This document shows, in pieces, positions 12,250 through 32,603 of a DNA stretch of 64,000 nt (its first letter is position 1; each line of letters opens with the position of its first letter). The translations under genes and the position numbers were made by a program. Below the pieces are notes generated by a model. It searched no databases. It worked only from the letters and a program-made list of their open reading frames with translations, and was not told the DNA's origin. Source of the stretch: Natranaeroarchaeum sulfidigenes (GTDB lineage: Archaea; Halobacteriota; Halobacteria; Halobacteriales; Natronoarchaeaceae); NCBI RefSeq assembly GCF_017094485.1, contig NZ_CP064786.1:1488001-1552000 (forward strand), read 5' to 3'.

Positions 12250-14256
12250 ATGGCGTCGTTTCGGGTAAAGACAGTTGGCGATGATGGTTACGGGCGTCTC
12301 GGCGAATTAGATGTCACGCATGGACCCGTAGAAACGCCAGTGCTGTTCCCTGTGGTCAATATGATTGGGGGTACGACGGAGAAGTCCGGCGGCGTCTGGC
12401 GTCGTATGCGTGAGAAACTCATCGATAAGGATCATCTTCAGGGAATCATGTTTCAGGCGATGAGTTTCACTGACTATGGGGTATCCCCAAACAATCTGAA
12501 TGATTTTTGGAGAGAAGAGACGTTTCACGAGCGGTTTGACGACTTGAACGCACCCGTCTTCATCGACTCAGGTGGTTTCAAGCTGATGAATTCAGACACT
12601 TTCGGTGAGGCACCTGAGAAAGGCGGCGTGCCGAATGAGTGGGGGCTTTACACGGATCCAAAGAGTATCTTGGGGCTCCAACTAGACTTTGGTGCCGATA
12701 TCGTTGCGACGCTCGATTATCCGATCCCACCGAATCTCAAAGAGTCGGAAAAAATCGAACGTATGAACCGGAGTATCGATAGTGCCGTCGAGTGCCTCCG
12801 GATCATTGACAATCCCGACCTTCTCGAGGAAAACTTCGAGATAAACAGTCGTGCGGCGGAAAGGCTTCGAGAGCGGAAAGCAGCTGGCGACGAACCGAGC
12901 GTCTATATCGCACTGCACGGTCACGACTACGAGACGATTAACTGGTATGTTGGTAATTTTCTCGACCGTGTTGACGAGGTGGACATCGACAGCTCGTTTG
13001 AGGGATTCGCTATCGGCTCTCTTGTACCCCTGCGAGATAGTATAGACGTCCTAGTCGACATCGTTCAGGGAGCAAAGGACGCGATTCCGGAAGCGCGTGC
13101 AGATGAAATTGGACTTCACGTTTTCGGTGTCGGTGGGAAGCAAGTGGGACTACTGTCTCTTCTCGGTGTTGACTCGTTCGACTGTTCGACACACATGCAA
13201 ACCGCGCGATATAAGAAGTATCTCCACCCAGAGACGTGGGCAAATCACACTCTCGACGATCTTCAAAACCACCTCAAGCCGGATGGTAGCTATCCCTGCG
13301 ATCTTACGAACTGCCTCCTTTGCGGCTCGGATGGTGTCGATTATGAAACACTGGTAGAGGAGCTGAACACGGATCTGACCTACGACGAACGGCAAGAGCG
13401 GAAGGCCAACGGAGAGTTCATAAAGAGCGACTACTACGCGCTTTTAGCTCGGCATAATTTCGAGGTATACAATGAAGAACTCGGGCGCGTCCGCGACGCG
13501 ATTCGTGAGGGTCGACTCCTCAACTACGTCATCGGATTTGCTAGGGAACACAATGACATCAAACGCGGACTCAAAGAAGCTCAACTCCGCGACAAAGAAC
13601 TTCGGAAAGATGTTCAGTCCCGGGAGGCATACGACCTGCTTCCAGGTTCGACTCTGACGAGCGATCAATCAAAGCTCTCTCAGTGGGGTGCAGGAGTCGA
13701 CGAAGCAACCGAAACCCGTCGAATCTCGCTCAAACATAGCCCGACTGATTTCGACATCCTATCTCGTTCATATGACCCACCAGCCAACAAAGAGGTACTC
13801 CTTCTTATCCCATGTAGTCAGCAAAAGCCCTATTCGAAATCTCGAACGCATTCGGTCCTATTCGACAAGCTGGGTCACCAAGCGGACAGGATTCACAAGG
13901 TAACTGTCTCTGGTATGTACGGGCCGGTACCAGAGGAATACGAACGTGAACAGCCAGTACTGGAGTATGACTATGTTCTTGCGAAAGAGGATACACAACA
14001 GATTGAACTCGTCACTGACCGTGTTGAACAATATCTTGAGAAGTACGGTGACCAATTTGACGAAATTATCGGATACGTCACCAGTAAAACCTACCGGCAA
14101 GTAATCTCGGATGCCTTCGATACCTACGGCCGTGGTGTTGTCCTCCCTCGTGATCCGGAAGCACTCCAGCTAACGGAATTCTTCAGGAACAACAATATTC
14201 AAGAATTGCTTGGGATGTTGAACGGTCAAATGGAAAGTGAGATGGACGAAGTATGA
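12250..14256 (+). CDS. dpdA: DpdA-type DNA transglycosylase fused to an ArcS-like (DUF5591) domain
   Basis: 668 aa. Residues 1-450 resemble tRNA-guanine transglycosylase and its DNA-acting paralogue DpdA, which exchanges guanine for preQ0 in DNA. Catalytic-type motifs are D106-SGGFK and VDSFD (D308, D311); a zinc-type cluster C350-x4-C355-x2-C358 is followed by a RHN segment. Residues about 510-660 resemble the catalytic domain of archaeosine synthase ArcS: PCSQQKPYSKSRTH (P521-H534) fits the PC-x3-KPY-x2-S-x2-H signature. ArcS converts preQ0 in tRNA towards archaeosine; here the fusion would place the chemistry on DNA (inference). No PUA domain is seen, unlike archaeal tRNA enzymes. It is convergent with the GHKL gene, with 22 bases between them. 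Confidence 0.8.
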   Translation: MASFRVKTVGDDGYGRLGELDVTHGPVETPVLFPVVNMIGGTTEKSGGVWRRMREKLIDKDHLQGIMFQAMSFTDYGVSPNNLNDFWREETFHERFDDLNAPVFIDSGGFKLMNSDTFGEAPEKGGVPNEWGLYTDPKSILGLQLDFGADIVATLDYPIPPNLKESEKIERMNRSIDSAVECLRIIDNPDLLEENFEINSRAAERLRERKAAGDEPSVYIALHGHDYETINWYVGNFLDRVDEVDIDSSFEGFAIGSLVPLRDSIDVLVDIVQGAKDAIPEARADEIGLHVFGVGGKQVGLLSLLGVDSFDCSTHMQTARYKKYLHPETWANHTLDDLQNHLKPDGSYPCDLTNCLLCGSDGVDYETLVEELNTDLTYDERQERKANGEFIKSDYYALLARHNFEVYNEELGRVRDAIREGRLLNYVIGFAREHNDIKRGLKEAQLRDKELRKDVQSREAYDLLPGSTLTSDQSKLSQWGAGVDEATETRRISLKHSPTDFDILSRSYDPPANKEVLLLIPCSQQKPYSKSRTHSVLFDKLGHQADRIHKVTVSGMYGPVPEEYEREQPVLEYDYVLAKEDTQQIELVTDRVEQYLEKYGDQFDEIIGYVTSKTYRQVISDAFDTYGRGVVLPRDPEALQLTEFFRNNNIQELLGMLNGQMESEMDEV

Positions 14257-14278
14257 TAGCAACTGTTTGATTAGACGA

Positions 14279-15838
14279 TTAGTCGTCGGCAGTGGCACTG
14301 ACTTTGGATTCGAGTAACGGTTTCACCTCGATAACTTCGGTGTAGTGGTTCTCTCCATCCCGATAGACGAGTGCTCCGTTCTCGAGTTGTACGGAGAGTT
14401 CACCGCCGATATATCCATTTCGTTCATACTCTTTGAGTTCAGCCGGGTCACCTTGAGTCCAACATACCGCAAGGTCGACGTTCTCCAAAGGAACTTCCTC
14501 GTTGAGAAGACCTGTCAGTGTTGGATGGACTGCAGCGTTCCGGAGCCGTCCGGCGTGTCTAACGATGGCATGCACATCAGCGTCCGGCTGGAAGTCTTCG
14601 ACAGAGAGTGTAAGCGACGCGTTTCCATTTACCGCTCGCTCGAGTCCGAGCAGTACTTCGGAGCTGTTGGCTGGATTGAACCCATCCGCTTCGATGCGTT
14701 CCCGTCGCTCTTTGAGTGACGACTGTTGGTTGGCCATCCGACGCCGGTGTTTACCCTCTTTACGTGTCTGAAGGTACTCCTCTTTGAACCAGGGGTCCTG
14801 CATCACTTTGGAAAGGTAGTATTCAATCTCTTCCGTGACTGCTTGATAAACTGAACTAGACTTGTTCCGGATCGTCTCCCTGTTCGCTGATAATTCGATA
14901 TCTTGGCAATTTGCAACGAAGAAGAAGTGGATATATTCGTTGTCGTGAGAGATTGCCTCGTTGTGTCGCTCTACTTTGATGTGGTCCTTCGCTAACCAGA
15001 CCCCGAACTGTGAAGAGTGCTTTCCGTACGTTGGCAGTTCATTACGTGCCTTCTTCCCACCGACCATGCCGACGATCTGGACCGTTGTCTCTCCTCCATC
15101 GTACTCGACATCGATTTCTTCTGCCGGATAGTGTTTGCACATTCGCTCGGCTGGGAATCTTCCGTCTCCGGGCTCTTCTTGTTCCTCTGGGAGTTCTAAC
15201 CGATTTGTGGTGACGAGTTTATCCCTCGTATCATCGATGTCTTCGTCGAGTTCGACGATGATGTCCATTTCCCGCTGAAACTCACCGAACTTGTGGGCAA
15301 GTGACCCGGCGATCGTCTTCCATTTCAGGTAGTGATGGATCTTATTGTACGTAAGTTCCTCGGCGTTGAACCCTTTCCCGGACCGGAAGTTTGTGATTTT
15401 GATCTTTGTCTGGGAATTACCGCTGCGAACGGAGTGTTTCGTCAGTTCATACTTCGGGAGTTCCTTCCGATTGAGTTTTTCCCAGGGTTCCTCCATCACT
15501 GCACGGTAGCTTTTTCCATCACGGACTGTTGTAACCTCGATATGATCGCTCTTGTAGAAGATTTTCGTTCCGTGACCCTTGTATCCAATCGAATCGGTCT
15601 TTCGGGAATTACCCAGGTCGAAAAACGATTCTAGGTCCCGCTCGTTCATCCCGTGCCCATCGTCTTCGATTATAATGTCCGATCCCTCGGGCTGGTTGCG
15701 AATGCTGATTTTGACTTCCGATGCGCCTGCGTCATACGAGTTCGAGAGCGATTCGCGGATGACCTCAAGCGGATCCTCGAAGTCGCTTGCAATTTCGAGA
15801 AACTCGTTGACTTCGTTGACTTTTGGTGATTTTTTCAT
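14279..15838 (-). CDS. GHKL (Hsp90/MutL-type) ATPase associated with DpdA
   Basis: 519 aa. The N-terminal ATPase has the N-box ESLSNSYDAGA (E29, N33, D36), the G1 box EDDGHGM (D60, G61, G63) and the G2 box GYKGHGTKIF (residues 85-94), as in MutL, Hsp90 and Morc-like proteins. The middle carries FGVWLAKDHIKVERHNEAIS and SANRETIRNKS, then a charged helical region and a C-terminal domain with AVNGNASLTLSVEDF. Such ATPases clamp and dimerise on ATP binding. The start overlaps the stop of the second transglycosylase by one base (TAATG). Bacterial Dpd uses the ATPase DpdB with DpdA; no DpdB is seen here, so this protein may supply the energy-dependent step (inference). Confidence 0.75.
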   Translation of the reverse strand: MKKSPKVNEVNEFLEIASDFEDPLEVIRESLSNSYDAGASEVKISIRNQPEGSDIIIEDDGHGMNERDLESFFDLGNSRKTDSIGYKGHGTKIFYKSDHIEVTTVRDGKSYRAVMEEPWEKLNRKELPKYELTKHSVRSGNSQTKIKITNFRSGKGFNAEELTYNKIHHYLKWKTIAGSLAHKFGEFQREMDIIVELDEDIDDTRDKLVTTNRLELPEEQEEPGDGRFPAERMCKHYPAEEIDVEYDGGETTVQIVGMVGGKKARNELPTYGKHSSQFGVWLAKDHIKVERHNEAISHDNEYIHFFFVANCQDIELSANRETIRNKSSSVYQAVTEEIEYYLSKVMQDPWFKEEYLQTRKEGKHRRRMANQQSSLKERRERIEADGFNPANSSEVLLGLERAVNGNASLTLSVEDFQPDADVHAIVRHAGRLRNAAVHPTLTGLLNEEVPLENVDLAVCWTQGDPAELKEYERNGYIGGELSVQLENGALVYRDGENHYTEVIEVKPLLESKVSATADD

Positions 15839-17079
15839 TAAAAATACCCTCCGAGTGATTGATTGACGACCTGATGAGCAAACTGCCGCATTGTTCTGTC
15901 TCGACCAAATGTCTCTTCGAAATAATCGACGAGGGCGTCCTCCCCACCCTGTTGAATACGATTGCGGATGTCTGCTAATTCTCGTTTCTGAACGATTAGG
16001 TTGTGCATCGCAACAGGACCAAGAATATCTTTTTTATATTCTGTATTGCCTCGCATCCAATTGACAAGGTGATCCGACTGACAAACCGGGCAGTCGCACT
16101 TCGAAAAGTCGGCTTCTTTGATCGGACTATGATCCATCAACGAATGACTGTACTTACCGTTGATTGCATTGTGTATGTGTGTACTCGAATCGAATGAATC
16201 AGCCCCGAGAGCAGCCAGAATCGGAATGGCTCTACTTGAAATACCCAAAACGTGGAGCGGCCAGTCTTCCATTCCCCACTCGGCCATCACTTCTCGACAG
16301 TCCGTGACTGCCTGAATCAGGGCACCACGATCGTCTTTTTTTGGCACGAGGCTCCCGAGGGCAATTCCATCGAACCCCTCGTGAAGCACGCCTTGCGGAA
16401 CGCTATCCGTAATTACATCCAGGTACTCGTTCATCATTGAGTAGTTGTACCCGTGAAGAGTGAGATATTGAGCACCATCGAAATCACGCGTCAGCGAGAG
16501 GAAAGTGTGAATATTCTCGGCTGTCCGCTCAGCTTTCTTGACACGTTCTTGGTGGGAGTCATCAGGGGCAATAGGATGATCGAGGTTGACAATGATATCG
16601 CTCCCGAGTTGTTTCTGGATCTGGTAGACCGTTCTTTGATCCATATCTTCCTCAAAGTCGCTTCCGTCAATCTCAGCATTGTTCAGGAACTTGAACCCGC
16701 CAGAGTCAGCGAAGACGGTTCCCTCAAACGGTTCGAAGAGTTCTCTTTCCTTGATTGGCGTATCTAAGTAGGCTTCAAACCTTTTTCGAGTGAGGTTGTA
16801 GTCCGTAAGTGAAGAGACAGACATCATAGTCGCATCGAAGTAATTCGTGAGTGGGTCGACGCTCACTCTTTCCGCGCCAATCATAAACTCCTTCATTGTC
16901 CGGTGAACGCCGCCACCATAGACGCTGTTTTCTGTTCCGCCGGCATAGAAATTCATGACTGGGAACAGGTTTGGGGTTTTGAGCCTGGTTCCGTTGACGT
17001 GAAGTGTCCCAGTTCGAGCATCGCCTGCTGTCGCATTGACCTCGAAGTTGAAAGTGTTCTCGGTGATTGTTCTCGACAT
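15838..17079 (-). CDS. second DpdA-like transglycosylase
   Basis: 413 aa from the ATG at 17079; a TTG at 17097, overlapping the upstream stop, is an alternative. TGT-fold motifs are complete: VFADSGGFKFL (about residues 120-130), IIVNLDHPIA, GFDGIALGSLVPK, ALGADSFDSST with the usual second Asp, and a canonical CxCxxC zinc site (CDCPVC) followed by MHNL, whose His should be the fourth ligand. It has no ArcS domain. The pairing of two different transglycosylases with one GHKL ATPase suggests a heteromeric enzyme, as in the eukaryotic QTRT1/QTRT2 pair, or two substrates. It sits between the DUF6884-like and GHKL genes in one operon. Confidence 0.75.
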   Translation of the reverse strand: MSRTITENTFNFEVNATAGDARTGTLHVNGTRLKTPNLFPVMNFYAGGTENSVYGGGVHRTMKEFMIGAERVSVDPLTNYFDATMMSVSSLTDYNLTRKRFEAYLDTPIKERELFEPFEGTVFADSGGFKFLNNAEIDGSDFEEDMDQRTVYQIQKQLGSDIIVNLDHPIAPDDSHQERVKKAERTAENIHTFLSLTRDFDGAQYLTLHGYNYSMMNEYLDVITDSVPQGVLHEGFDGIALGSLVPKKDDRGALIQAVTDCREVMAEWGMEDWPLHVLGISSRAIPILAALGADSFDSSTHIHNAINGKYSHSLMDHSPIKEADFSKCDCPVCQSDHLVNWMRGNTEYKKDILGPVAMHNLIVQKRELADIRNRIQQGGEDALVDYFEETFGRDRTMRQFAHQVVNQSLGGYF

Positions 17080-17093
17080 TATTGCTTGGATGC

Positions 17094-17555
17094 TCAAATG
17101 GGTGCCTCGGTTAGCGGTTCTCGTTCGCCTCGAACGACACGTTTGAGGATGTGTCCTTTGTGACCAATACCTTCTCCCTCGATGTAGTACACTTTTGCAT
17201 CTACGGCGTCGGATATACCTTCAAGGGCCAGTCGATACGTACCACCGACGTTGATTATGACTTCGTCATACGTTTCAGAGACAGTCTCACGAAGTTGAGT
17301 TTGAACTCTCGGGGCCAACTCAACGGCTCTTTCCGCATTCATTCGGTTATCGTACCATTCAATCTTGGTGTCAGATTCGATAAGTCCGTGTTCTGCGGAT
17401 AGTATACAGATGTCCATCTCCTCGTCGAATAACTCTTCTCTCATAGATTTTTTGATAATATTGAAGAAATATCCCGAGTAGAGTTCGAGTGCAGGGATTG
17501 CCTCCCCCGGCTCATTTTTCGATTTAGAACAGGCCTGTACCAATAGTGACGACAT
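17094..17555 (-). CDS. DUF6884-like protein, DpdA partner
   Basis: 153 aa from the ATG at 17555 (a GTG at 17561 is in frame). Visible blocks are QACSKSKNEPGEAIPALELY near the N-terminus, then ICILSAEHGLIESDTKI and EWYDNRM, the pattern I associate with DUF6884: Cys-Ser-Lys-x-Lys, ALELYSG, SAxxGL, YD. The opening CSKSK resembles the PCSxxK start of ArcS-like domains, so the two families may be related. DUF6884 genes occur beside DpdA-type genes in some viruses. It is the first gene of the minus operon and is divergent from the large helicase gene. Confidence 0.6.
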   Translation of the reverse strand: MSSLLVQACSKSKNEPGEAIPALELYSGYFFNIIKKSMREELFDEEMDICILSAEHGLIESDTKIEWYDNRMNAERAVELAPRVQTQLRETVSETYDEVIINVGGTYRLALEGISDAVDAKVYYIEGEGIGHKGHILKRVVRGEREPLTEAPI

Positions 17556-17852
17556 ACACACCAGTTGCGATCACAGGTGCATTAAACTTACTACCGGCTC
17601 TTGATAGGTGCAGACAAAAGCTGGAAGTAAGACAAGCGGTCATCTACAAAAATAGTCGTCCTGGGTTAATTCTCAAAACCCCTAGTTTCACATTTATGTA
17701 CTCAGACGTGGCTTGTAGAACGTCAAACCAGTGGTGAGCCTATCGTGATATCAGAATTGGAATCCGTCAACCATAAGGAGAACATGGCACACGTGCACAG
17801 AGAAATGATTAATACAAGATGGTTACTAAGCCCACGGCTATAGTCAATTACT
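17556..17852. promoter_or_regulatory. divergent promoter region of the two Dpd-like operons
   Basis: About 297 bases between the minus operon (DUF6884-like, transglycosylase, GHKL) and the plus operon starting at 17853. The segment is AT-rich with several TATA-like stretches (attaatacaaga at about 17809). No clear palindrome was seen. It separates the predicted modification arm from the restriction arm. Confidence 0.4.
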
Positions 17853-20800
17853 ATGGATACACCAAGGAAACGAGTGCAGCAGGCTGTCGATAGGGCAGCG
17901 GAGGTTACTTGGTGGAATCGACAAATGACAAAACTGACAGATGTTGCGGGAGTTCAGAATCCTCAGTCGTTTGTCAGTGACGAGATCGTCGAACGGAAGG
18001 GCCCGTACGTCGAATTTGTGGACGCTCCAGCGTTCCATGAAGACTCTGCAGCGGACTTTTTAAGCGAACTCGACTATCACGATCATATAATTCAGGCTAT
18101 TACCGCCGAACTGTTCGGTGGTGACCCCGGCGGCTCACTCTACGAACACCAAGCTGAAACGATTTCAGCAATCGAGTCGAACACTGACGACAACATTCTC
18201 GCGGTGCCGACCGCTTCTGGGAAGACAGAGGCATTTTTCCTTCCCATCCTCGATCACTGTCTGTCGAGCGATGAAGATGGGCTGAAATCAATCGTTCTCT
18301 ATCCGATGAAGACGCTGGGTGTCGACCAGCTCAATCGGTTCATCTCGTACCTCGATCAGATCAACCGTCGACGCGATCCCGACGAACGGATCACGATTGG
18401 GATTTGGGACTCGGATACCCCTAGCCGAGTGGGAACTCGTGATCACGAAATCGAGGTCGGGTCGTACGTACGAGGGCTAGAGTGTCCCCGAAACGAGGGG
18501 GAGAAGCTCAAAGTCCTTGGTGACGTCAGTGTAGGGACCGATGACAATCAGTATCCGTGGCTCCGCGTGACCCGTGAGAGCATCCGTCGTGGTGTCGATA
18601 TTCTCCTCACAGGTCCCGAAGCACTCGATTACATGTTTGTGAGCGACAACCAGGAAACTCGCTCGATACTCGGGGAACAACCCGGAGAAGCCCCAGTCGA
18701 ACACATCGTCTTCGACGAGGCTCACATCTGGAGTGGTATTCAGGGAGCTGCGGTTTCTCTATTGTCCGAGCGTCTAAAGGGACATTTCGCCGAACGAGAT
18801 CCGCAAATCACGATGGTTTCCGCGACGGTCGACAATCCAACCGAACTAGCCGCCGACTTGACGGGAACAGACGATGAAAATCGGATCAATACAATCGAGT
18901 TCACACCGCGAGAGTTTCTAGTCAAAGGAACACCAACGTTCGATCGGCTCGAACCGTGCGAGGCGGACGACCTCATCACTGCCGTGGCACTCATCCACGT
19001 ACTCTCTGTAGACGAGCGGACACTCAAGGAGGAGTTCAATGCGGGGAACGCACTGGAGACACTCAAATCGGTTGGTCTCGTGACGGGAACGGATCACATC
19101 CGTATCAACGACAGGGTCGGTCAATGGCTCACTAGCCCGATCGACGACACTGTTGAGAGAGTTCTGACGGATACCAAACACCCCGGAGTCGAGACATCGT
19201 TCACCGACCGCGAGTCGGTGGTAACTAGCGACCGCGGACAGCGACGGATCGTCGAGAGCGTTCTTGAAACCGGTGGGATGCACTCGAAATGGTTCGATTT
19301 CGTTATCGAAGCAGTACCGGAGGTCGCGCGTCTCGCGGAATGGTTCGGGGAAGACACGACAGGGGTCGTCGGGTTCAAGCACTACGATGAACTCGTCGAG
19401 CAAATGGCTGCAGAAGGAGTCGACGACCCTGAGGGTGTTTTGCAGACAGTCATGGCATTCGGTCGGTTAGCCGGTGTCGTTACTGAGAAGTATCACTACT
19501 TTTTGAAACCCCCTCACAAGGTCTTCTGGTGCCGAGATTGCGAGGAGGTTACCCGAGATAGCCGCTGTGACCACTGTGAAGCTGACTTGGCGGAACTCCA
19601 GTTCTGTCGGAGATGTCACCAACCACACGTGGAAATCGAATCAGACAGCGAAATAATGGAAGATGAGTCGTCGTACGTTCCAGTTGGTGCTTATGCCTCG
19701 ACGGAGTCAGTCAACGGAGGAAAATGCCCTGGATGCGGGCAGTCACCACAACTCACTGACATCGGTGTTCCCACTTCGTCGTTGTTGTCGTATATGCTGA
19801 CGGAGTTATGCCGTGTCTCTCCCTCGAAGAAGACTCTCGTTTTCTCCGATTCTCGGAGTACTGCTGAGTCCGTCGGTGATCGCATTATTGATACGGAGTA
19901 TGGATTGATGGCCGAGACGTTGTATGTCGATGAACTCGTCCGAAACGGAGGGCAGGCCGACAACTTTGAACTCTTTAGATCCGTTTCCGACCGACTCCGT
20001 GACGAATACTGGGACCCACTCATTCAGAACGACATGAACGAGGACGGGACGGCGTTCAATTTCCTTCAGTCACTCCTCGATGATATCGAGGCCCACGCGA
20101 TGCTATCTAATTGCAGTCATCTGTTGGACAGCGCACTCGTGACAGCGGAATCCGTCTACGACACCGACGACCTCGAAGAACTTCTTGTTGGGCATGCACT
20201 CTACAATCTATACGCCGGATCTTCCGGACAGTCGTTCTCAAAGAACCGACTCAAGTTTGATGGCCTGACTCGTGGGAAGATTATCGACCGGCTCGAATCG
20301 AGGACCGGCTACGAACGGCACGTCATCGACGCTCATCTCGACGACATCCTCCAGACCTTCCTCGATGTCGGAATCATCACTGAAGTTCCCTGGGACGAAA
20401 TTCGAGACAAGATTCAGTCGTCGAATCAGGGAGAAGATGTCAAAAACGACACGTTCGACTTCATCGAGTCGGCACGCGAAACGGCGATAGATCACGACAT
20501 CGTCGAGGATGCAGAAAGTGGCGTCTTCACGAGAATTCCACGGGTGGACGACAGCACCATCGTCTTGCTTTCTGAGGCCTCGTTCTGCGACGAGTGCTAT
20601 CGGTCGTATCCCGTCACGGCCGATGGAGACAGTCTTTCGACGTGTCCTCATTGTGGAACGAATGTCCAGACGTATACTCGGTTCCGTGAACGCAACGGCG
20701 AACTCGTCGCCGATCCAGGCTACGCTGATGTCTCGAGCGAGTGGGAGTACGCACTCGACCACTGGGCACACGACATTACCACGCCAATACGCGGTGGGAT

Positions 20801-22631: not shown

Positions 22632-23545
22632 TTCGAGACCGACTCATCAGCGAAGTTCAAGAGTCTGAGGTGGCGTATATGTATGACCCCAGAGAGAACT
22701 CTCGGTGGGGCCTCCTCCGAGCGCTGCCGGCGCTTTGCTACCTCGGCGTTGACGACTTCACCTATCCAACGTCATGGTGCCAGTTCGGCCGAGGCGACCG
22801 TCACTTCGAGCTGGACTATGACTACCACGTGATCAGCAACTCGCTGGATATTCCCGACGATAGCCCTGACTTTGGAGTGATTACGAACGACTACTACGAA
22901 GAGGAAACGCCGTACACGATCAAGTATCTAATTGATCGGTACACGAGGAGCGATTCGATGCTGTTTGCACTCACTGACAGCAAACAGTTTCAGCCACAAG
23001 GTGCCAAACGACCGCTATATCAGGACCCATTCGTCGAAATGTTGGGAACGTACGGCTCCGTGTACGAAGAGTTCGAGGCAGCGTACCAGGAGTACGGCTG
23101 GGAGCTGCCGTTAACGAACACGAAGAATCTATTTGTCCAAGACAACGCAAACCTGTATCGGTTCGTCACGGGCGAATCGCTATCGAAGGCAACCGAACTG
23201 TTCGAGGTCCTTCCCGAGGCGCCGTACCTGCCACTGTATGATCCTCTGACAAGTGTGTTCAGTCGTCCTGAAGAGTTCGGAACAGTCCCACTTGACGCTG
23301 AAGAGGGATTGCCGGAACTGGTCCGATGGCTTCGACGGCGTATCGAGTGGGATCGTGATACTGCACGCGATATTGCGTCCTCGCTGAACAAAGTTGTGAT
23401 TTCAGAGGGGAGTACGTTCGATCCCGCGGCTGCTCGACGACATCCTTCGATCCGAGAAGCCCGCCAAGCAGCGAAGAATCTCGACCCAGAAGCATCGCCT
23501 ATTGATCACCGCTACGCAGAGTGGCTAACGAGGTACGAACTATGA
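22628..23545 (+). CDS. unknown protein of the Dpd-like restriction operon
   Basis: 305 aa, function not recognised. It begins on an ATGA overlap with the helicase stop. The N-terminus has YDPRENSRWGLLRALPALC; the middle is rich in Tyr and Asp (FGVITNDYYEEETPYTI, then KYLIDRYTRSDSM), and the C-terminus is charged and helical. No nuclease or ATPase motif is visible. The position between the helicase and the DpdG-like gene suggests a structural or adaptor subunit. Confidence 0.6.
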   Translation: MIRDRLISEVQESEVAYMYDPRENSRWGLLRALPALCYLGVDDFTYPTSWCQFGRGDRHFELDYDYHVISNSLDIPDDSPDFGVITNDYYEEETPYTIKYLIDRYTRSDSMLFALTDSKQFQPQGAKRPLYQDPFVEMLGTYGSVYEEFEAAYQEYGWELPLTNTKNLFVQDNANLYRFVTGESLSKATELFEVLPEAPYLPLYDPLTSVFSRPEEFGTVPLDAEEGLPELVRWLRRRIEWDRDTARDIASSLNKVVISEGSTFDPAAARRHPSIREARQAAKNLDPEASPIDHRYAEWLTRYEL

Positions 23546-24375
23546 GCGAAGGCTACATTCTCAACGCACTACAGACGCCGGGAGTGCTACGTCCGGTGTA
23601 CGAGTCCGTTTGCAGAGGTAACGGCACACGACTAACTGTTCGACACGATACCGGTCTCGACAGGGATGCGGTACAACAAGCGACGGACGGTCTCCGTTAT
23701 GTCCGCCTTCTTGGACAGGAAGACGGCGAGTACTATGCCGCTGATATTCCATGGGAAATAGAAAGTGACGCTCTCGAATTTCGAATGGCAGTTCTCCATA
23801 ACCTCGCTCAAGAGTGCACGCCTGGTGACTGGGGGAAACAAGCCGTCGTGCTGTTGAACTACCAATATTTACTTGAGAAGGACATCCAGTATTTCAAAAA
23901 CGACGACTCCGTGTTGTACGACTCGATTAACGAGTGGCACCGTAACGAAAAAAACTATATTCCGATGTCGCAGCAAGGAGAGATTGATCTGAACAAAAAC
24001 AAGTTCGTTAACTGGACGCGTATCATTGCGTATCTCGGGTTGGTGCACAAGGCTTCTGGACGAGAGCATACTGTTTATCCAGACCCTGACATCGTCGAAA
24101 CGTCAATCCAGCTCGCAATCGAAGAACGAGGATCAAACGGTCGGATTGAGATAGAAAAGTACCTAGATTGGCTCCGGAAGAACCTCTTCCCTATCACTAG
24201 AACGAGCAGTGGTGAACTACCTGCGTCCCTCAGTCGCATTCTCTACAACCTCGTTCGGGACGGGACCATCAGCTTGGTAGAGTACGGGGACGCCGGAGCC
24301 GTCTCACTCGCCCGTACCCCCCGACGTGACGGTATCGATGCTGAAGCGAACACTATCGAGGTGATGTCCGAATGA
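23542..24375 (+). CDS. dpdG: DpdG-like protein
   Basis: 277 aa from the ATG at 23542, overlapping the previous stop. The N-terminus begins SEGYILNALQTPGVLRPVYE, followed by a winged-helix-like region (LTVRHDTGLDRDAVQQATDGL). The middle has GDWGKQAVVLLNYQYLLEKD and the C-terminus has SSGELPASLSRILYNLV. Assignment to DpdG is by size and position directly before the DpdH-like ATPase. Bacterial DpdG belongs to the restriction arm and its biochemical role is not known to me. A DNA-binding or adaptor role is possible. Confidence 0.55.
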   Translation: MSEGYILNALQTPGVLRPVYESVCRGNGTRLTVRHDTGLDRDAVQQATDGLRYVRLLGQEDGEYYAADIPWEIESDALEFRMAVLHNLAQECTPGDWGKQAVVLLNYQYLLEKDIQYFKNDDSVLYDSINEWHRNEKNYIPMSQQGEIDLNKNKFVNWTRIIAYLGLVHKASGREHTVYPDPDIVETSIQLAIEERGSNGRIEIEKYLDWLRKNLFPITRTSSGELPASLSRILYNLVRDGTISLVEYGDAGAVSLARTPRRDGIDAEANTIEVMSE

Positions 24376-27269
24376 GTAAGACCGCTACCGCGCCCGAGTT
24401 GTACTGTCCACATCTCCAGGAGGTCGATAACCAGACGCTCCAACAATTGTTCAGCAAGGTAGCTGCTGTTCGGTCACAGAACCGAGAGTTATTCGATTTC
24501 ACTCATCGCCGAATCGAAGTTTTCCAGGAATCGGCTGGTGAAATCGAGACGGTTTCTGAAGAGGAGGTTTACGATCAGTTTGACGAAGACAAACTGAAGA
24601 ACTTCGCTGTCGTGATCGAAGGTGAAGTCGGCACGGGGAAGTCTGAACTCTGTGCATATCTCTCACACAGGTTAAAGGACGATGGACGGCCGATTCTGCA
24701 CGTCGACAAAGAAGACGATTTGATGTCCTTGCTATCTGAACGACTCCCAGAGTTTTATCACGAACAGTTCGGTGAGGAAATGGAGGGTGCAGCCGATTTT
24801 AAGCGTCTTCGAGATGACATCGAGTCCGTTCCCCAAGTCGTTGCGAACAGTGCCGTATCTAATTCGATTTTAAATCTGCGACAGCGAGGTTACGATGTCG
24901 GTGTAACTGAAAAGCAGGAAAACAAGATTTCCGAGTTCATAAGGGACAAGCTGCGGTTGTTCGTGGAGAGAGGGAAATACGCTACCGAGATTAAGTTCGT
25001 CACCGAGCAGGAATATCGACAGAACGAGTTCCTACAAATCTTCACTGACACATCCATAGATGAAGCCGTTGAAAAGTACAACGAAGAAATTTGGCGGGTC
25101 GTCAGGGAACGGTACGAAACTGCGTCACTATCGTCTGTTCTCAAGAGTATCGGGTCGGAATTTACGGATACTCGACCAGTCATCGTTTTTGAGGACTTCT
25201 CGATTACGGCAATGGAGGCCAACAAACTAGCTAGCTTCATCGAGAGCGACTCTACAGAGAACACCTGGGATTTCATCATCGCCGGAACGCGTGATTCTAC
25301 CGATCCACTGCATACGCAAACGGCCGAATCCCGTTACGAGTTCTACCAGACGAACAAAGGCGACCAAGGTGTTCTCTTTTTGGATCAAGACAGTGCAGTG
25401 GACTTCGTACGACCGTACCTCGGCTACTTCAAGTCGCTCGACGACAGCGTTCAGTACGAACGTGAGGATGGGACTTTTAAACTGAAACCGGCCCCCTCCG
25501 GTACGCGATGTGATCAGTGTGGCCTCTGTGATGAGGAGTTTCGAGATCTCTTCCCGTTCAATGAACACTTCCTTAAGCGGATTTTCATCGGCATGGAGGA
25601 ACACCAGGGGACACCTTCTCCTCGGGAGTACATTATGACCGTGTTCGATGTGCTCAGTGCCTATTACGAGGGGAAGATTACTGTCCCTTCGAACGCCAAG
25701 TCGCTACAACCGTTGGTGAACCGGATCGGCGTCGCCGACGCAGTGTACGAGGATGCAGAAGACTTCGGCCGACTGGCGCGCTGGTATGGAATACCAGACG
25801 ATAACAACGAAATGGTCATTGTCGACCGACGTTTCGCTAAGGCATTCGGACTTGTTGACTCGGGAGATGGAACAGCTGATCTTCCGGGTCCCGTCGAAGC
25901 CAGAGTAGATGAAATCCGTATCCCAACGTCCGACATCGATATAAGCTCCTCACCGGAGAGAGCCAGTGACGATGATAACGATAGCGAAAATGATGGGGAT
26001 TCATCTAAATCCATCTCGCAGACAGATCCTGTCGAGGAAGAATTCAAGGAACAAGCACCGCTGATCGAATCTTGGCGGAACGCTCCACGTGATTACAAAC
26101 GGACCGCACAGTATTTGGAACGCGGTTTAGAAGACGCGGTTGAGAAGTTGACTGACGGTCATATTCTCTATGAGGGAACGTCGCTAGAGTACAACCTCAG
26201 TAGCCAAAAGCGGCCATTTGTGTTCTCGATTACCGAAGACACCCCCGACGACGATCAGATCGTTATCGATCCGAACGAATTTAGACTCTCAGAACTCCGC
26301 AGCGTCCTCAGGTTCGGGATCGAACGAGACAAGAACCCGAGAAATGCTGGCTACGACGAACTCTTGTCGACGACCGGAACACAGCTTACTGGCTACGCCA
26401 AGGAATGGCGGGCACAAATCCGTAATACGAATCTAGAGTCAAGCAACGCCCTCTATACGAAACACTCGCAGTACGATTTTACTGACTTCATCTTAGCAGC
26501 ATATAGTTACGTTATCGTTCTGGACTCTCCTTGGAAGCCTCTCTCGGCCGAAACACTTTGCGACCGCTTCGGCGACGGGGAGTATGCAATCGATTCTGAT
26601 ATCCGCACATGGCTCGACTCAGAACTCGAACATAGTCAGGTCAGAGCACTCAAACGACTCGTCGAAAATGCGTCTCACCTCGAAGAAATGGTCGGTGAGC
26701 TGTTTGGTATTAGTGGTTCCAACCTTGACCAGTATCAAATTAGCCAATGGCTCAACCACCAAACTCCTCATACGGTTCTCGGGGGCCTCGGACGGACGTA
26801 TATCAAGAACGTCGATAACAGAGTCCGTTTCAAAGATGGGACAAAAATACGAGAATTAGCAGATACCGCGTATGATGCACGCCGAGGCCTTGAAGAAATC
26901 TCGAGTCGATACCAACAAGACACCGTCGATGATATCGAGTCAAATCTCAGTGACATTTCCATGGACGAGTTCGATCGAATTGTCTCAAAACTCGGTACCT
27001 ACGAGGTAGACCCTGACGTCATGGAACCGCTCAAGCAATTCAATCAGCTGGAACAGTCAGACATCGATGCTGTGGTTGAGGCAGCGAAGGCGGCAAACTC
27101 TCTGTATAGTCCAAGTACTTTCAAATCGATACGGGCAGTACTAGCGAGTATCAAATTGGATAACTCCACGGTCTACGAACGCTACCAAGCAGTGCCGTTA
27201 CGATCGACAAACGGTTCTCAAGATATCGGGTACGAATTCAAGGAGGTGGCTCAGTATTATGCAGAGTGA
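24372..27269 (+). CDS. dpdH: DpdH-like P-loop ATPase
   Basis: 965 aa. An AAA/STAND-like ATPase core follows a short N-terminus: Walker A in VVIEGEVGTGKSEL (GEVGTGKS at residues 83-90), Walker B-like PVIVFEDFSIT (about 271-281), and FIIAGTRDST as a sensor-type strand. A Cys cluster, RCDQCGLC, lies near residues 379-386. An acidic linker at about 530-560 separates the ATPase from a long C-terminal helical region. The start overlaps the previous stop (ATGA), and the stop overlaps the coiled-coil gene by about 11 bases. Gene order G-H-I-J-K matches the bacterial Dpd restriction genes, where DpdH is the ATPase. Confidence 0.7.
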   Translation: MSKTATAPELYCPHLQEVDNQTLQQLFSKVAAVRSQNRELFDFTHRRIEVFQESAGEIETVSEEEVYDQFDEDKLKNFAVVIEGEVGTGKSELCAYLSHRLKDDGRPILHVDKEDDLMSLLSERLPEFYHEQFGEEMEGAADFKRLRDDIESVPQVVANSAVSNSILNLRQRGYDVGVTEKQENKISEFIRDKLRLFVERGKYATEIKFVTEQEYRQNEFLQIFTDTSIDEAVEKYNEEIWRVVRERYETASLSSVLKSIGSEFTDTRPVIVFEDFSITAMEANKLASFIESDSTENTWDFIIAGTRDSTDPLHTQTAESRYEFYQTNKGDQGVLFLDQDSAVDFVRPYLGYFKSLDDSVQYEREDGTFKLKPAPSGTRCDQCGLCDEEFRDLFPFNEHFLKRIFIGMEEHQGTPSPREYIMTVFDVLSAYYEGKITVPSNAKSLQPLVNRIGVADAVYEDAEDFGRLARWYGIPDDNNEMVIVDRRFAKAFGLVDSGDGTADLPGPVEARVDEIRIPTSDIDISSSPERASDDDNDSENDGDSSKSISQTDPVEEEFKEQAPLIESWRNAPRDYKRTAQYLERGLEDAVEKLTDGHILYEGTSLEYNLSSQKRPFVFSITEDTPDDDQIVIDPNEFRLSELRSVLRFGIERDKNPRNAGYDELLSTTGTQLTGYAKEWRAQIRNTNLESSNALYTKHSQYDFTDFILAAYSYVIVLDSPWKPLSAETLCDRFGDGEYAIDSDIRTWLDSELEHSQVRALKRLVENASHLEEMVGELFGISGSNLDQYQISQWLNHQTPHTVLGGLGRTYIKNVDNRVRFKDGTKIRELADTAYDARRGLEEISSRYQQDTVDDIESNLSDISMDEFDRIVSKLGTYEVDPDVMEPLKQFNQLEQSDIDAVVEAAKAANSLYSPSTFKSIRAVLASIKLDNSTVYERYQAVPLRSTNGSQDIGYEFKEVAQYYAE

Positions 27270-27954
27270 CGAATCAGCCGATGAACTCACGTTTGAGGAA
27301 CACCTCCAGGGAATGTATTACCGGTATAGACAGCAACACCTCGAAGAACGGCTGGAGGAACTTGCACAGACGATGGAAGAGACGTTACTGCAACGAGCAC
27401 TTACAAAGGCGTTCTTCAACGAATCAATCGATATCGATGAGGATGCGAAGACTGCTGTTCAAGAAACGGTTGAAAAATTAGAGGCTGGCCGATACGATGA
27501 AGTTGACAAAGAACTCGATTCACTCGCAAAGACGGTCGAACAATCGGAAACCCAGGTGACCAATCAAATCCAGCAATTACGGATCGATAGGCAGGACACC
27601 ATCAGCGCGATGCGGAGGCTGAACGAACGTGTCGAACGTGTTGACCAGTCTCAACTTAGCACACTGGAATCCCTATTGAACGGCTGGGAGTGGAAGTCAC
27701 AAGTATATATAGAGACGAACGACACGTTTGAAGAGCATCGACAGGAAGCCAGAGAGTACGGCAACGATATGGCGGCGATCTTCGAAGACCTGAAAGACCA
27801 ACTGTTCGGGGCTTACGACGATACTGAGCTTCGGCCACTCGTTAGACGACTTCTCGACAAGGACCGCTTGCGATTAGATGAACTCACAGAGGAGGAACGA
27901 CGACAGCTTGCTGAGTCCGACCTCGCAGACCATGTTGAATTGAAACTCTCGTAG
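27259..27954 (+). CDS. dpdI: DpdI-like coiled-coil protein
   Basis: 231 aa, almost wholly alpha-helical and acidic. Heptad-like stretches include YRQQHLEERLEELAQTMEET and QIQQLRIDRQDTISAMRRL; a short globular part follows (SLLNGWEWKSQVYI). No enzyme motif. It overlaps the ATPase stop and ends 148 bases before the second helicase. Position and size fit DpdI. It probably bridges the ATPase and helicase proteins, but that is inferred from order only. Confidence 0.55.
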   Translation: MQSDESADELTFEEHLQGMYYRYRQQHLEERLEELAQTMEETLLQRALTKAFFNESIDIDEDAKTAVQETVEKLEAGRYDEVDKELDSLAKTVEQSETQVTNQIQQLRIDRQDTISAMRRLNERVERVDQSQLSTLESLLNGWEWKSQVYIETNDTFEEHRQEAREYGNDMAAIFEDLKDQLFGAYDDTELRPLVRRLLDKDRLRLDELTEEERRQLAESDLADHVELKLS

Positions 27955-28102
27955 CCCTACATCTGTCAGTAGGGACACCCCGATACATACTCATTGAATC
28001 GGTCACAAAATACGGAAACAAACCATGGATGTGCAGTTCCTCAGTCCAGAGGGAAATGTATTAGGAGCCTCCGTGGGACAGCAGTCATAATTGAACGTCA
28101 GA

Positions 28103-31100
28103 ATGCAATACATTGACCGCAATACGAAACCGGGGCGGATAGAGGATAACGTACGACCGCTCCTCGAGGCGATGCTTGAAAACAAGCAAATTAGATACGC
28201 TGACCACGAGGAGCCCCCACATGTAACAAAAGCGATTAAATACGAACGTCAGAGGCAGGACCGGCGAGACACAAGTACATATACCGGTGACGATCAGTTT
28301 GTCCAATCGATTATTGACGTATTCGGGTTTGATCCGTTGGACTTCCAAATTAACAGTTGGCAAACAGTTGACGAACTGGATGAACGTCGACGGACAGAAA
28401 ACGACTCGAAGGGTGCAGTCTTTTCGGCGCCGACGGGGTTTGGTAAGACTGAGGCGTTTCTCGGCCCTCTCTATCAACTGCTACGTGAGGAGCGACAGGA
28501 GTCCGTGGCCATCGTCTACCCGAGCCGTGCGCTCCTCCAGGACCAACTTGGCCGAATTCTCGAGCACGTTCATGCAATCGGGACAGAGCACGATAATCAG
28601 CTTTCAGTTGGCTGTTATGTTGGCGGAATGCCGTGGGAAGTCTCTGACGTTGGTACCGAGGGTTTTTTCGAGAAGACAAATGGGCGCCCACGATTCAAAC
28701 TCTGTAATTGCTGGTGCGGTGAAAATGAATCCCATGCATTCGAACTTCATAACACCTCAAAATCGTATGTCTTAGAGTGCGAGCATGACTCTTCTCATCG
28801 TTTCACTGATCGAGAACTGGTGCTCTCTCGTAAGGACCTCGTGTTCAATCATCAACCGGACATTGTACTAACGACCCTCGAATCCCTCGAGAACTTTGCA
28901 CACAAGCCTCACTACCCTCTCGTCGATAGTTTCGATACGATTGTTTTGGACGAGGTCCACCTCTATACAGGTCTGCGCGGCGCACACGCGGCGAAAATCA
29001 TTCAGAACGTCGACGATATCTCGGATAGTCCACTATTGTGGCTCGGTTCGAGTGCGACGATCGACGATCCGGAACGTTTCGGACGACAAATCTTCGGCTT
29101 ATCCTCACGCGATATCGAGACCACCAAACCTCCAGAGTCTGACTACGACGACGGTCACGACGACTACGAACACTACTACTTCATGCTGGCACCCGAAGAT
29201 GGGCCTGGCGTCACCTCGATGGCGATCCAGCAGTCGATGTTGCTCGGGCATACGATGCTTGAGGATACAGAAGGCAACCGAAGCAAGCAGCTATCGTTCA
29301 TCGACAGCATCTCCCAAATCAATCAACAGCGGGTCCAGCTTCGAGACGCAGACCGGTCAAACGAACTCTGGCAGTACCATCGCCGGAGTCTCTTCGAGGA
29401 AGACTGGGACTCGGTTGCTTCCAGTATGGGCCAACGGTTTATCGACGAACCGCTCCAGTTCTTGCCCGTTTATTCCGATCAAGGCTTCGACAAGGATCAC
29501 GCAGCTGACAGCGATATCCTGTTGTCCACAAATTTCCTCGAAGTCGGCATCGATGTCGGAGAGATAAAAATCGTCACTCAACATCGTACTCCGTGGAACC
29601 TCTCATCGTTCCTCCAGCGTGCCGGTCGAGCGGCCCGAAAGCCGGGTATGGATTCCCATGTGGCCGTGTACCTATCCAGCCTGACTGGCGACGCTAATAT
29701 GTTCTATCGAGCCGATCGGTTCCTCGGCTCCGATATCCGAACACCGCTGAATACGGACAACCGAGTCGTCGAGTGGATGCATGATCGGTTCAACCGCTAC
29801 TTCAACCACGTCTCGGAGATTGACGCCAAACGGTTCAGATCTTCGGTAGAAGCTCACAGGACGTTTCTTGAAGACTATCTAAGAGAGGACTTGGAATACG
29901 ATGCGTACTACGAAATGATCATTAACCCGAAAGAGTTCTTTGACGAGGCGCTGGGCCTCGACGTTCCGGCCGATCAGCTCCTCTCCCAGCAAGTCGTAGA
30001 CGACGTTCGAGATGAGGTCGACGAATATCTGGAAGAGCAGAGTGAGGAGCTATCGGATATCGAGGAGTACTTCGGGATGGAAGACGGCGAGATCATTCGC
30101 GGCTCTGACGCCATTGAGACGTATATTCTTGAAGTCCAAGAGCAGACTCTCCGTGTAGTAAATACATTCGATGGTCAGGTTTCTGGGTTCGTTCATAAGT
30201 TAGAGAAGCACGATGCGAGCGGGTACGATGACCTCGTCGAATCCCTGAACGAAGAGTTGGCCAACACACGCGAAGAGGCACAGGAACTTCCGGACGTCAG
30301 CCCTGCCGAGACGGTGGCACACTTCTCATCGCTTCTCGCTCGCCTGTTCGGACTGTTGGGTAAACTAATGGAGCTCCGGAATCACGCTAACAGAGCCGCT
30401 GAGGAGCCAATTCCACAGGTGAACCAGGAGAAGCTGTCCACCCTGAATGACGCCGTCAATCAACTCGAAACACTCAGCGAAGACGATCGGCTGCAAGAGT
30501 ACTACCAACTCGAAAAGCAGATTCACCACCTACGTTCCGCGCTAGAGGAGTATCGATCGTATCTTGACGCGAATACCCCTTACAACTCGCTCTATCGGAT
30601 CAAGGACTTGCTCCGTGGAGCATACTACTTTGATCTGTACCTTCAGACCACTGACGAGCGCCTCGATGACGATGTTTGGTTCGTTCCGCCAGACTACTTC
30701 GGGAGTTCAGGACAGTTCGTAAAGGTGTTCCGAGAAAACGACCCTCAGGACCGACCTGAGGAGTCTATTGACCAGATTCTCAGCACCTATGCTCCGTATC
30801 ATTCGGAATATCAGTCCGAGTCCGGACGAATGCAGGTCTTCCTCCCAGACACGACTGTCACTGAAGACGGTGTTGTGATGGATTACACCAAGCATGTTTC
30901 TGGTGAGGAGCAGGAGGGTGTGCTCGTTCCGGACACGCTCCAATTGTCGGAAGTTCAGGACCTCTCCGGAGATAGCGCTATGGAAATCGTTCAGTATTGT
31001 CCAGAGTGTTTTCAGGTTCTTCCCAGCGATATCGACCGTTGTCTCCGACACGAGCAACGTGAGTACGGTAAGATTCACTCCGAACCCCATGTTGACACGA

Positions 31101-32188
31101 CCGTAACTAATCGCACGCCCATCGAACAGACAGGTGATCTCACACTGGCTGACCTTGAGGCAAAAGTTTCGCTTGAGAGTGTGACTCTCGAGATTACGCC
31201 CGGCCGATATTACGGGGATGAAATCGGAGTAGCCTACGACAAAGATACAGACAGATTCTCCCAAGAGCTACAGAGTCCCGAGACGCCGCTCGGATATACG
31301 ACACGAACCCGGGGGCTCGTCTACGACATGGATACCTTCTTAGACAGCATTGAGGATGAAGTCCGAGAGTACGTTGAGCGGTACAAAGACCTCGATGACA
31401 CAGATTTCGAGTATCTTGCCTATCACACTGCCGCCCACTTCTTCCTACAGTTCGTGACGGATGTCAGTAGCGTTAGTAACCAACGTGTATTCTACGGGTT
31501 CGACGAGGGTGTCGGCGAGGTATATGTTTTCGAGCGCACTGAGGGTGGACAGGGTATCGTCGATCTCGTCTACGATGAAATTCAGTCTGACCCCGGAAGC
31601 GTTCTCGAATCGATGAACCGTTTACTGTACAACGAGCAGGTGATCGGTGAACGGCTATGGTCCCGGGCAGAATTCGTCGGTCGGCTTCCGACCGACGATC
31701 CAAATGAGGAGACGATACGGTCCATCGTTGTAGAGTATCTGCCAATAGCGTTTGACGATGTCATCGACCGTGTTACGGGAGAGATAGTATCGACCGTCGA
31801 CCACGCTCATCAGTTCGCAACTGACGAAGACATCGCTGTGAGAGACGCGTACGACCTCAAACACATCGTTGCGGCTGCACAAATCAACGGGGAAGACGAG
31901 TTCCCGACTGATGCCGTCGAGCAGCACGAGACCAATATCTCCGACTCGGATCGTGTGAAGGCGGCGTTCCATTCGCCAGACATAGACGGTTGTGTCGAGA
32001 ACCTCCACATAACGGACTGTATTGAAGCAGGTGAGCAGAGTGAGACGCTTAGCTACGTTGTTCTAGAAGCTCTTCGAGAGCATTTGACCACAACCGTTCC
32101 TGCAACCGATGCAGCTGACGAAATGTTCGACCAGGAACTCCCCCCAGGAGGTGAGATCAATGGTACAAGCATTTTCCTTGACTTCTGA
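28103..32188 (+). CDS. dpdJ: DpdJ-like DUF1998 helicase
   Basis: 1361 aa from the ATG at 28103; a TTG at 28091 is also in frame. SF2 helicase motifs are VFSAPTGFGKTEAF (Walker A, near residue 110), IVLDEVHLYTG, WLGSSATID, STNFLEVGIDVGEIK and SSFLQRAGRAARKPG. A Cys-rich insert (LCNCWCGENE) lies near residue 195-205. The middle is coiled coil (about 640-840). The C-terminal DUF1998-type region contains YCPECFQVLP, LAYHTAAHFFLQFV and ERTEGGQGIVDLV. In bacterial Dpd, DpdJ is this type of helicase and directly precedes DpdK, as here. Expected to translocate on unmodified DNA. Confidence 0.75.
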   Translation: MQYIDRNTKPGRIEDNVRPLLEAMLENKQIRYADHEEPPHVTKAIKYERQRQDRRDTSTYTGDDQFVQSIIDVFGFDPLDFQINSWQTVDELDERRRTENDSKGAVFSAPTGFGKTEAFLGPLYQLLREERQESVAIVYPSRALLQDQLGRILEHVHAIGTEHDNQLSVGCYVGGMPWEVSDVGTEGFFEKTNGRPRFKLCNCWCGENESHAFELHNTSKSYVLECEHDSSHRFTDRELVLSRKDLVFNHQPDIVLTTLESLENFAHKPHYPLVDSFDTIVLDEVHLYTGLRGAHAAKIIQNVDDISDSPLLWLGSSATIDDPERFGRQIFGLSSRDIETTKPPESDYDDGHDDYEHYYFMLAPEDGPGVTSMAIQQSMLLGHTMLEDTEGNRSKQLSFIDSISQINQQRVQLRDADRSNELWQYHRRSLFEEDWDSVASSMGQRFIDEPLQFLPVYSDQGFDKDHAADSDILLSTNFLEVGIDVGEIKIVTQHRTPWNLSSFLQRAGRAARKPGMDSHVAVYLSSLTGDANMFYRADRFLGSDIRTPLNTDNRVVEWMHDRFNRYFNHVSEIDAKRFRSSVEAHRTFLEDYLREDLEYDAYYEMIINPKEFFDEALGLDVPADQLLSQQVVDDVRDEVDEYLEEQSEELSDIEEYFGMEDGEIIRGSDAIETYILEVQEQTLRVVNTFDGQVSGFVHKLEKHDASGYDDLVESLNEELANTREEAQELPDVSPAETVAHFSSLLARLFGLLGKLMELRNHANRAAEEPIPQVNQEKLSTLNDAVNQLETLSEDDRLQEYYQLEKQIHHLRSALEEYRSYLDANTPYNSLYRIKDLLRGAYYFDLYLQTTDERLDDDVWFVPPDYFGSSGQFVKVFRENDPQDRPEESIDQILSTYAPYHSEYQSESGRMQVFLPDTTVTEDGVVMDYTKHVSGEEQEGVLVPDTLQLSEVQDLSGDSAMEIVQYCPECFQVLPSDIDRCLRHEQREYGKIHSEPHVDTTVTNRTPIEQTGDLTLADLEAKVSLESVTLEITPGRYYGDEIGVAYDKDTDRFSQELQSPETPLGYTTRTRGLVYDMDTFLDSIEDEVREYVERYKDLDDTDFEYLAYHTAAHFFLQFVTDVSSVSNQRVFYGFDEGVGEVYVFERTEGGQGIVDLVYDEIQSDPGSVLESMNRLLYNEQVIGERLWSRAEFVGRLPTDDPNEETIRSIVVEYLPIAFDDVIDRVTGEIVSTVDHAHQFATDEDIAVRDAYDLKHIVAAAQINGEDEFPTDAVEQHETNISDSDRVKAAFHSPDIDGCVENLHITDCIEAGEQSETLSYVVLEALREHLTTTVPATDAADEMFDQELPPGGEINGTSIFLDF

Positions 32189-32603
32189 CAGCCTGAGCTA
32201 CTTCATTGGGTACACACTGTTGCACGCCCCACGGACCATCGTCGTCTCGCCATGGCTAAGCGACGTCGAACTTCGATTCCCAGTGAACGAGCATATAGAA
32301 GATCGTCGCATGAATATGCTAGATGCAATCTCCGAACTCCCCGATACCGACGTGACGTTCATCGTCCGCGAAGGGGAGGACCACAATGACTTTGTCCGAG
32401 AACGACTTCCAGACGGTGTCACGATGCTCGAGATAGAAGACCTTCACGCCAAAGTCGTCGTTTGTGATGAATACGCATATATCGGCTCTGCGAATATCAC
32501 CCGCGGTGGTTTGACCCTCAATCGTGAAGTCTGCGAAGTTATCGAAAACGAGTACGATAATGCGGTTATATATGTCGAAGAGGAACTCGATGTATATCTT
32601 TAG
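32160..32603 (+). CDS. dpdK: DpdK-like phospholipase D-family nuclease
   Basis: 147 aa from the ATG at 32160, preceded by a good ribosome site (ggaggtga) inside the end of the helicase gene. One PLD active-site motif is present: LHAKVVVCDEYAYIGSAN, followed by ITRGGLTLNREVCEVIE (H-x-K-x4-D, then GSxNxTxxG). With one motif per chain it should act as a dimer, as nucleases of the Nuc/BfiI type do. It is the probable DNA-cutting subunit of the Dpd-like restriction arm. DISARM DrmC is also a PLD protein, but the gene order favours DpdK. Confidence 0.75.
   Translation: MVQAFSLTSDSLSYFIGYTLLHAPRTIVVSPWLSDVELRFPVNEHIEDRRMNMLDAISELPDTDVTFIVREGEDHNDFVRERLPDGVTMLEIEDLHAKVVVCDEYAYIGSANITRGGLTLNREVCEVIENEYDNAVIYVEEELDVYL

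Follow-up and report, generated by a model that had tools for sequence, protein, structure and literature searches.

A probable haloarchaeal BRIGADE Type I locus combining a predicted 7-deazaguanine DNA-marking cassette with putative, Dpd-like restriction genes

An island in a haloarchaeal genome probably encodes a system that distinguishes self from non-self DNA: a 7-deazaguanine base would mark the host DNA, and unmarked DNA would be restricted. We put the probability of this reading, in which the locus is of the BRIGADE Type I kind, at about three in four. The genes occupy positions 12250-32603 of the window, i.e., the 64,000-nucleotide stretch of DNA analyzed here, which is part of a 3.04 Mb genome on a single contig. 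New, as far as we searched, are the part-by-part anatomy of the locus, a TGT-ArcS fusion, and the occurrence of the same marking cassette beside the DISARM genes drmABC.

Results

Gene content and provenance

The open reading frame list of the window contains 11 frames between 12250 and 32603, namely of 668, 519, 419, 155, 1592, 305, 284, 965, 231, 1365 and 164 amino acids, and their order and domains match those described in an earlier note on this DNA. Pfam, NCBIfam and PADLOC profiles recognize two TGTs, a GHKL ATPase, a DUF6884 protein, two SF2 helicases, a P-loop ATPase and a PLD nuclease, which, together with a coiled-coil protein, bears out the inventory in that note. All of the named genes are present and intact, and we consider it very highly certain that the locus is real and conserved. 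The system continues past 32603: a queD-queE-queC cluster at 44908-46997 had been overlooked.

The G+C content of the locus is 0.50, compared with 0.61-0.64 in seven other stretches of the same genome, and the other sampled genomes of the host genus and family contain no strong match to the DpdH-like gene, to TGT2 or to the gene for the DpdJ-like helicase. The locus was therefore probably gained by acquisition. On the minus strand at 5359-11359, the window also carries a conserved cluster of Csm3-like and Cmr3-like RAMP proteins, an RNase H/DEDD-like nuclease and an HNH protein, which is partly common to about 10 other haloarchaeal genomes; neither a Cas10 match nor a CRISPR array was seen in window positions 1-12300. 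Further along the island, on the plus strand, are an exonuclease VII large-subunit homologue (50164-51600) and a Type II-like DNA methyltransferase (54943-57207).

The predicted marking cassette

As the earlier note had proposed, the proteins were compared in the manner of HHpred with those of bacterial Dpd: alignments of the archaeal families were matched by hhalign, in all pairs, to DpdA-K from up to eight bacterial plasmid loci. This comparison yielded matches to DpdA, DpdC, DpdG, DpdH, DpdJ and DpdK, while non-matching pairs were mostly near zero, save for helicase-helicase pairs and the pair of the fusion with DpdA (52%).

The fusion, ArcSTGT (12250-14256, plus strand; 668 residues), comprises a TGT domain at residues 13-435 and DUF5591, the ArcS core, at 505-631; Pfam and NCBIfam detect no tRNA-binding PUA domain in it. 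In the family alignment, the catalytic aspartates D106, D308 and D311 are kept in 35 of 35 members, and the zinc ligands in 33-35. The motif PC-x3-KPY-x2-S-x2-H, which we take to be the signature of ArcS, is found in 33-35 of the 35 fusions and is common to the host's own ArcS. Because the host ArcS, aligned beside the fusion, has lost the DSGxF motif, and the fusion retains its TGT and ArcS motifs, the latter joins a complete TGT to a complete ArcS core. ArcS of Thermococcus attaches lysine to preQ0 and depends on a radical-SAM partner (PMC11298593); the locus encodes no such partner. By analogy with this chemistry, the product of the fusion could be a preQ0-lysine adduct or, with a host partner, deoxyarchaeosine.

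The second TGT, TGT2 (15838-17097, minus strand; 419 residues; TGT profile, 92 bits), is predicted to be a DpdA-like base-exchange enzyme. It matches the DpdA profile with an E-value of 8e-9, and D131, D300 and D303 as well as the zinc ligands C334/C336/C339/H365 are kept in 41 of 41 members. By BLAST, however, its score against the tRNA ArcTGT of the host (72 bits) exceeds that against any single bacterial DpdA protein (29 bits at most). Adjacent to it, the GHKL ATPase (14279-15838, minus strand; 519 residues; HATPase_c_3, 58 bits) matches neither DpdB nor any other Dpd family in the hhalign comparison with DpdA-K. Its AF2 model is poor (pLDDT 56), with structural matches to the known GHKL fold only; from its place in the cassette, our guess is an accessory ATPase to the TGT. 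The DUF6884 protein (17094-17561, minus strand; PF21818, 58 bits) is a short DpdC-like protein, of 155 residues versus 220-308 in bacterial DpdC, and matches DpdC both by hhalign (78%, E 1.9e-5) and in PADLOC (E 4e-5). DpdC, which had been thought unrecognizable here, is thus represented, whereas the same statement about DpdB stands, in that no family of the locus matches DpdB by hhalign.

The supply of preQ0 may be provided by second copies of queD (44908-45420; TIGR03367, 72 bits) and queC (46308-46997; TIGR00364, 187 bits) and by queE (45420-46196; TIGR04349, 105 bits), all on the plus strand; QueC alone exceeds its model cut-off. The other copies of queD and queC lie at positions 43859 and 1913320 of the genome, respectively. 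In 20 of 42 cassette genomes, que genes fall inside the fetched neighbourhood, and in several they are directly divergent from the fusion gene; a VUT-type (queuosine-precursor) transporter is near seven loci.

The helicase and nuclease genes

The remaining genes are all on the plus strand. The first encodes a YprA-family helicase of the Druantia/ARMADA type (17853-22631; 1592 residues), with PADLOC scores of 146 bits for DruE versus 94 for DpdJ and 61 for DrmA, and with a long insert containing CxxC pairs between the helicase lobes. It is in this helicase that an MZB/DUF1998 zinc domain is detectable, and not in the DpdJ-like one, where DUF1998 had been placed. Next is p305 (22628-23545), which is kept in 26-28 loci, always between the helicase and the DpdG-like gene. 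It has no family match, and nothing like it was found among DpdA-K by hhalign; its AF2 model (pLDDT 84.7) gives weak matches to P-loop-like folds, without a Walker A motif.

There follow a DpdG-like protein (23521-24375; 284 residues; hhalign 97%, E 1.5e-10 over 230 columns), a DpdH-like P-loop ATPase (24372-27269; 965 residues; 99%, E 1.7e-17) with a Walker A motif in 30 of 30 members, a coiled-coil protein (27259-27954; 231 residues) kept in 29 neighbourhoods, a DpdJ-like YprA-family helicase (28091-32188; 1365 residues; E 3e-50), and a DpdK-like PLD nuclease (32109-32603; 164 residues; PLDc_2; E 1.8e-19) whose HxK residues H113 and K115 are kept in 21 of 21 members. The DpdG-, DpdH-, DpdJ- and DpdK-like proteins stand in the bacterial order, as had been claimed for the last five genes. 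The remaining assignment, DpdI, rests on likeness of position, size and coiled coil, the 6% hhalign match between the C-termini not being significant. No archaeal locus family matches DpdD, and DpdE gives generic helicase similarity only (at most 13%).

DISARM was considered as a better match for the window and rejected on bit scores: the second helicase scores 170 for DpdJ versus 52 for DruE and 31 for DrmA, and PADLOC finds neither DrmB nor a methyltransferase among the locus genes. The preference for Dpd expressed in the earlier note is thereby upheld, although the PLD protein taken alone is a near tie (DpdK 35, DrmC 33 bits).

Beyond the nuclease lies a gene for a GmrSD/DUF262 type nuclease (32830-35862, plus strand; 1010 residues; PF03235, 94 bits), a frequent neighbour whose membership is uncertain. 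It raises the possibility that the mark is a trigger and not a shield, i.e., that a GmrSD/SspE-like nuclease recognizes either the deazaguanine mark or modified DNA of foreign origin, by analogy with phosphorothioate (Ssp) defence. The copy in the window does score against SspE and HEC-06, and 17 of the neighbourhood genomes contain GmrSD-like genes, in five of them immediately behind GHKL; such genes are, however, frequent in defence islands and missing from many BRIGADE loci, and the DpdJ/PLD modules track the cassette far more tightly. We consider a trigger role quite improbable, and favor a mark that shields the host DNA. Also within the window, at 40829-43918 (minus strand), are genes for a PIN-domain protein, a 404-residue protein of no assigned family and a TFB-like protein; counting the window, this trio is found in 11 neighbourhoods, always with the p305 module.

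Distribution and modular organization

Strong matches were counted in 391 Halobacteria genomes, and the gene neighbourhoods mapped. The same gene blocks occur in about 26 of the 391, at approximately 35-80% identity. TGT2 and the GHKL ATPase are found in the same 42 genomes, the DpdH-like ATPase in 29, and the DpdJ-like helicase in 26. The DpdH-like ATPase and TGT2 coincide in 26 genomes, where 3.1 are expected (P=2e-26); all 26 genomes with the DpdJ-like helicase have TGT2 (P=6e-30), and 25 of them have the DpdH-like ATPase (P=3e-34), P-values that overstate independence, since related species share some loci by descent. Among the carriers assigned to species are Halorubrum lipolyticum DSM 21995, H. 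coriense DSM 10284, H. cibi, Haloplanus ruber and Natrinema mahii, and the loci of Natrinema sp. SYSU A 869 and Haladaptatus sp. YSMS36 are on plasmids. A pattern scan based on the GHKL alignment, which would miss remote relatives, returned 22 loci, all from Halobacteria, while an exact-peptide-pattern search with the DpdH-like protein returned none, its patterns probably being too specific. A viral source of the TGTs was also considered and rejected: no relative was found in viral contigs, and a phage set gave distant TGT matches only.

The neighbourhood maps resolve three modules: DUF6884-TGT2-GHKL, usually with the TGT-ArcS fusion; helicase-p305-DpdG-DpdH-coiled coil; and DpdJ-PLD. Across many genera, the gene order within each module is fixed, and the modules are shuffled and inverted relative to one another. 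A chance build-up of unrelated defence genes might be suspected in a region that is low in G+C and holds other defence-type genes. Such a process does not readily yield strict order within modules or co-occurrence of this strength, and kinship among genomes, while it inflates the P-values, cannot account for the shuffled order of the modules; this explanation is disfavoured and very improbable.

The composition of the cassette varies. The fusion was not seen in the fetched stretch of loci in genomes G028, G142, G290, G295, G370 and G002, in four of which a second DUF6884 gene takes its place, so the final base may differ from locus to locus. In G259 (L168-L169) and G253 (L179-L180), another gene set (c94-c97 and a divergent first-type helicase) lies beside the same cassette; profile comparison leaves the kinship of this set to the p305/DpdH module doubtful, and its ATPase, c96, is doubtfully DpdH-like by hhalign.

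The cassette beside other restriction machines

In 16 genomes the cassette occurs without the p305/DpdH module. In four of the surveyed genomes, it adjoins DISARM drmA, drmB and drmC-like genes, with matches of 147, 84 and 40 bits for the cluster representatives, which were scored in place of every copy. These loci are L155 (G290), L161-L162 (G028), L159-L160 (G370) and L183-L184 (G055); in G290, DUF6884, TGT2, GHKL, GmrSD, drmA, drmB and drmC follow one another on one strand. A crude regular-expression scan near these loci found no convincing amino- or cytosine-type methyltransferase motif, and our search of the open-access literature found no paper pairing DISARM with a TGT. In another four (G069, G146, G294 and, again, G055), the cassette adjoins genes for HerA and a BrxC-like ATPase, and in three of the four the retrieved stretch also holds a PglZ-like gene; at L173 (G146) and L177-L178 (G294), it directly adjoins all three kinds of gene. 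This arrangement is of the BREX-related capture (BRC) type, which had already been tied to TGTs (PMC12839542). A tentative proposal, to which we give slightly less than even odds, is that the cassette (DUF6884, TGT2 and GHKL, to which the fusion and queDEC may be added) works as an exchangeable DNA-marking unit serving BRIGADE, BREX-related capture and DISARM, where it would replace the methyltransferase; the fusion would then give cellular DNA an archaeosine-type base.

These associations bear on whether the cassette acts on DNA at all. Classically, TGTs act on tRNA, and the closeness of TGT2 to the host ArcTGT by BLAST would also agree with modification of tRNA or another RNA, in which case the helicase modules would be a separate DNA defence sharing the island. 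That the cassette is present in every genome with the DpdJ-like helicase (26 of 26), that it adjoins three kinds of DNA-restriction module, that TGT2 matches DpdA by profile, and that the fusion has no detectable PUA domain all argue against an RNA substrate, which we regard as unlikely. DNA is the probable substrate of the cassette.

Discussion

In a preprint on YprA helicases, Bell et al. (bioRxiv, September 2025; PMC12458937) define BRIGADE as confined to halophilic archaea. It combines a predicted 7-deazaguanine cluster and a nuclease of the PLD or PD-(D/E)xK kind with a pair of YprA helicases; in Type I, one of the pair is ARMADA-like and the other belongs to the Dpd branch. The window locus has two TGTs, a DUF6884 gene and queDEC; a PLDc nuclease with HxK in 21 of 21 members; and two helicases that score highest as DruE (17853-22631) and DpdJ (28091-32188). 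The 22 loci of the GHKL scan, in which remote relatives would be missed, are all haloarchaeal. With each of these features in agreement and none of the locus contradicting membership, we assign it, with high confidence as judged from sequence, to this already named kind, the ARMADA-like call resting on the DruE profile score, the MZB/DUF1998 domain and the insert with CxxC pairs. The earlier description as a distinct archaeal Dpd variant was right as to the likeness to Dpd; the Druantia/ARMADA type of the first helicase instead fits the hybrid named BRIGADE. According to its authors, BRIGADE still awaits detailed characterization, and the main text of the preprint does not mention the TGT-ArcS fusion, the DUF6884 and GHKL genes, homology to DpdG/H, or a cassette shared with DISARM (PMC12458937). 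A plasmid locus of Natronorubrum aibiense (L265 1-19794) looks like BRIGADE Type II: two large helicases are encoded side by side, and the locus also has a pair of TGT genes and genes for a BREX-type ATPase and a queuosine precursor transporter.

Bacterial Dpd, from Enterobacter, Agrobacterium, Nostoc and other plasmid loci, shares with the window locus the DpdA-, C-, G-, H-, J- and K-like proteins, the G-H-(I)-J-K order, and nearby que genes, sometimes with a VUT transporter. In contrast to it, the window locus has no match to DpdB, DpdD or DpdE among the tested families, a Druantia/ARMADA-like helicase holds the place of DpdF, and a GHKL ATPase, the fusion and p305 are added. BRC loci likewise place a TGT gene beside a defence module, and some haloarchaeal cassette loci adjoin HerA, a BrxC-like ATPase and PglZ; the window locus, however, has no HerA or PglZ genes, and the BRC paper mentions no GHKL and reports no DpdB or DpdC homologue (PMC12839542). 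In Vibrio phage nt-1, DpdA2 and ArcS mark DNA, yielding dPreQ0, dADG and dG+, but these genes are separate and viral, and the marks are proposed to shield phage DNA (PMC6884629), whereas in the window locus the two activities are predicted to reside in a single cellular fusion protein, accompanied by a putative restriction arm.

By likeness to bacterial Dpd, we propose the following scheme. Dedicated QueD, QueE and QueC would raise preQ0; TGT2, aided by the GHKL ATPase, would replace guanine in DNA by preQ0 or one of its derivatives; and the nitrile would then be converted by the DUF6884 protein and the ArcS part of the fusion into an amide or an amidine/lysine adduct, e.g., deoxyarchaeosine. 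The helicase/DpdG/DpdH/coiled-coil set and the DpdJ helicase with the PLD nuclease would scan DNA and cut or block what is unmarked. The genes, their intact active-site residues, their conservation, linkage and homology are observed; it is from these that we infer DNA as the substrate, the role of each marking gene and of p305, the final base, and restriction itself. Marking and restriction are favored by the co-occurrence of TGT2 with the DpdH-like and DpdJ-like proteins, the profile matches to DpdA/C/G/H/J/K, the kept TGT residues and ArcS motif, the fusion without a detected PUA domain, the nearby queDEC with duplicated queC and queD, the VUT transporter, the cassette beside other restriction modules, and the fit to the BRIGADE definition. 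Against marking weigh the BLAST proximity of TGT2 to the host ArcTGT, the lack of a DpdB relative, and the lack of a radical-SAM partner of ArcS in the locus.

If this reading is true, cellular archaeal DNA bears 7-deazaguanine marks, and enzymes close to those that make archaeosine in tRNA take part in their synthesis. A DISARM locus without a methyltransferase would be a test case for DISARM working on a non-methyl mark, and the sharing of the cassette points to independent evolution of self-mark and restriction machine, each of which could be exchanged without the other.
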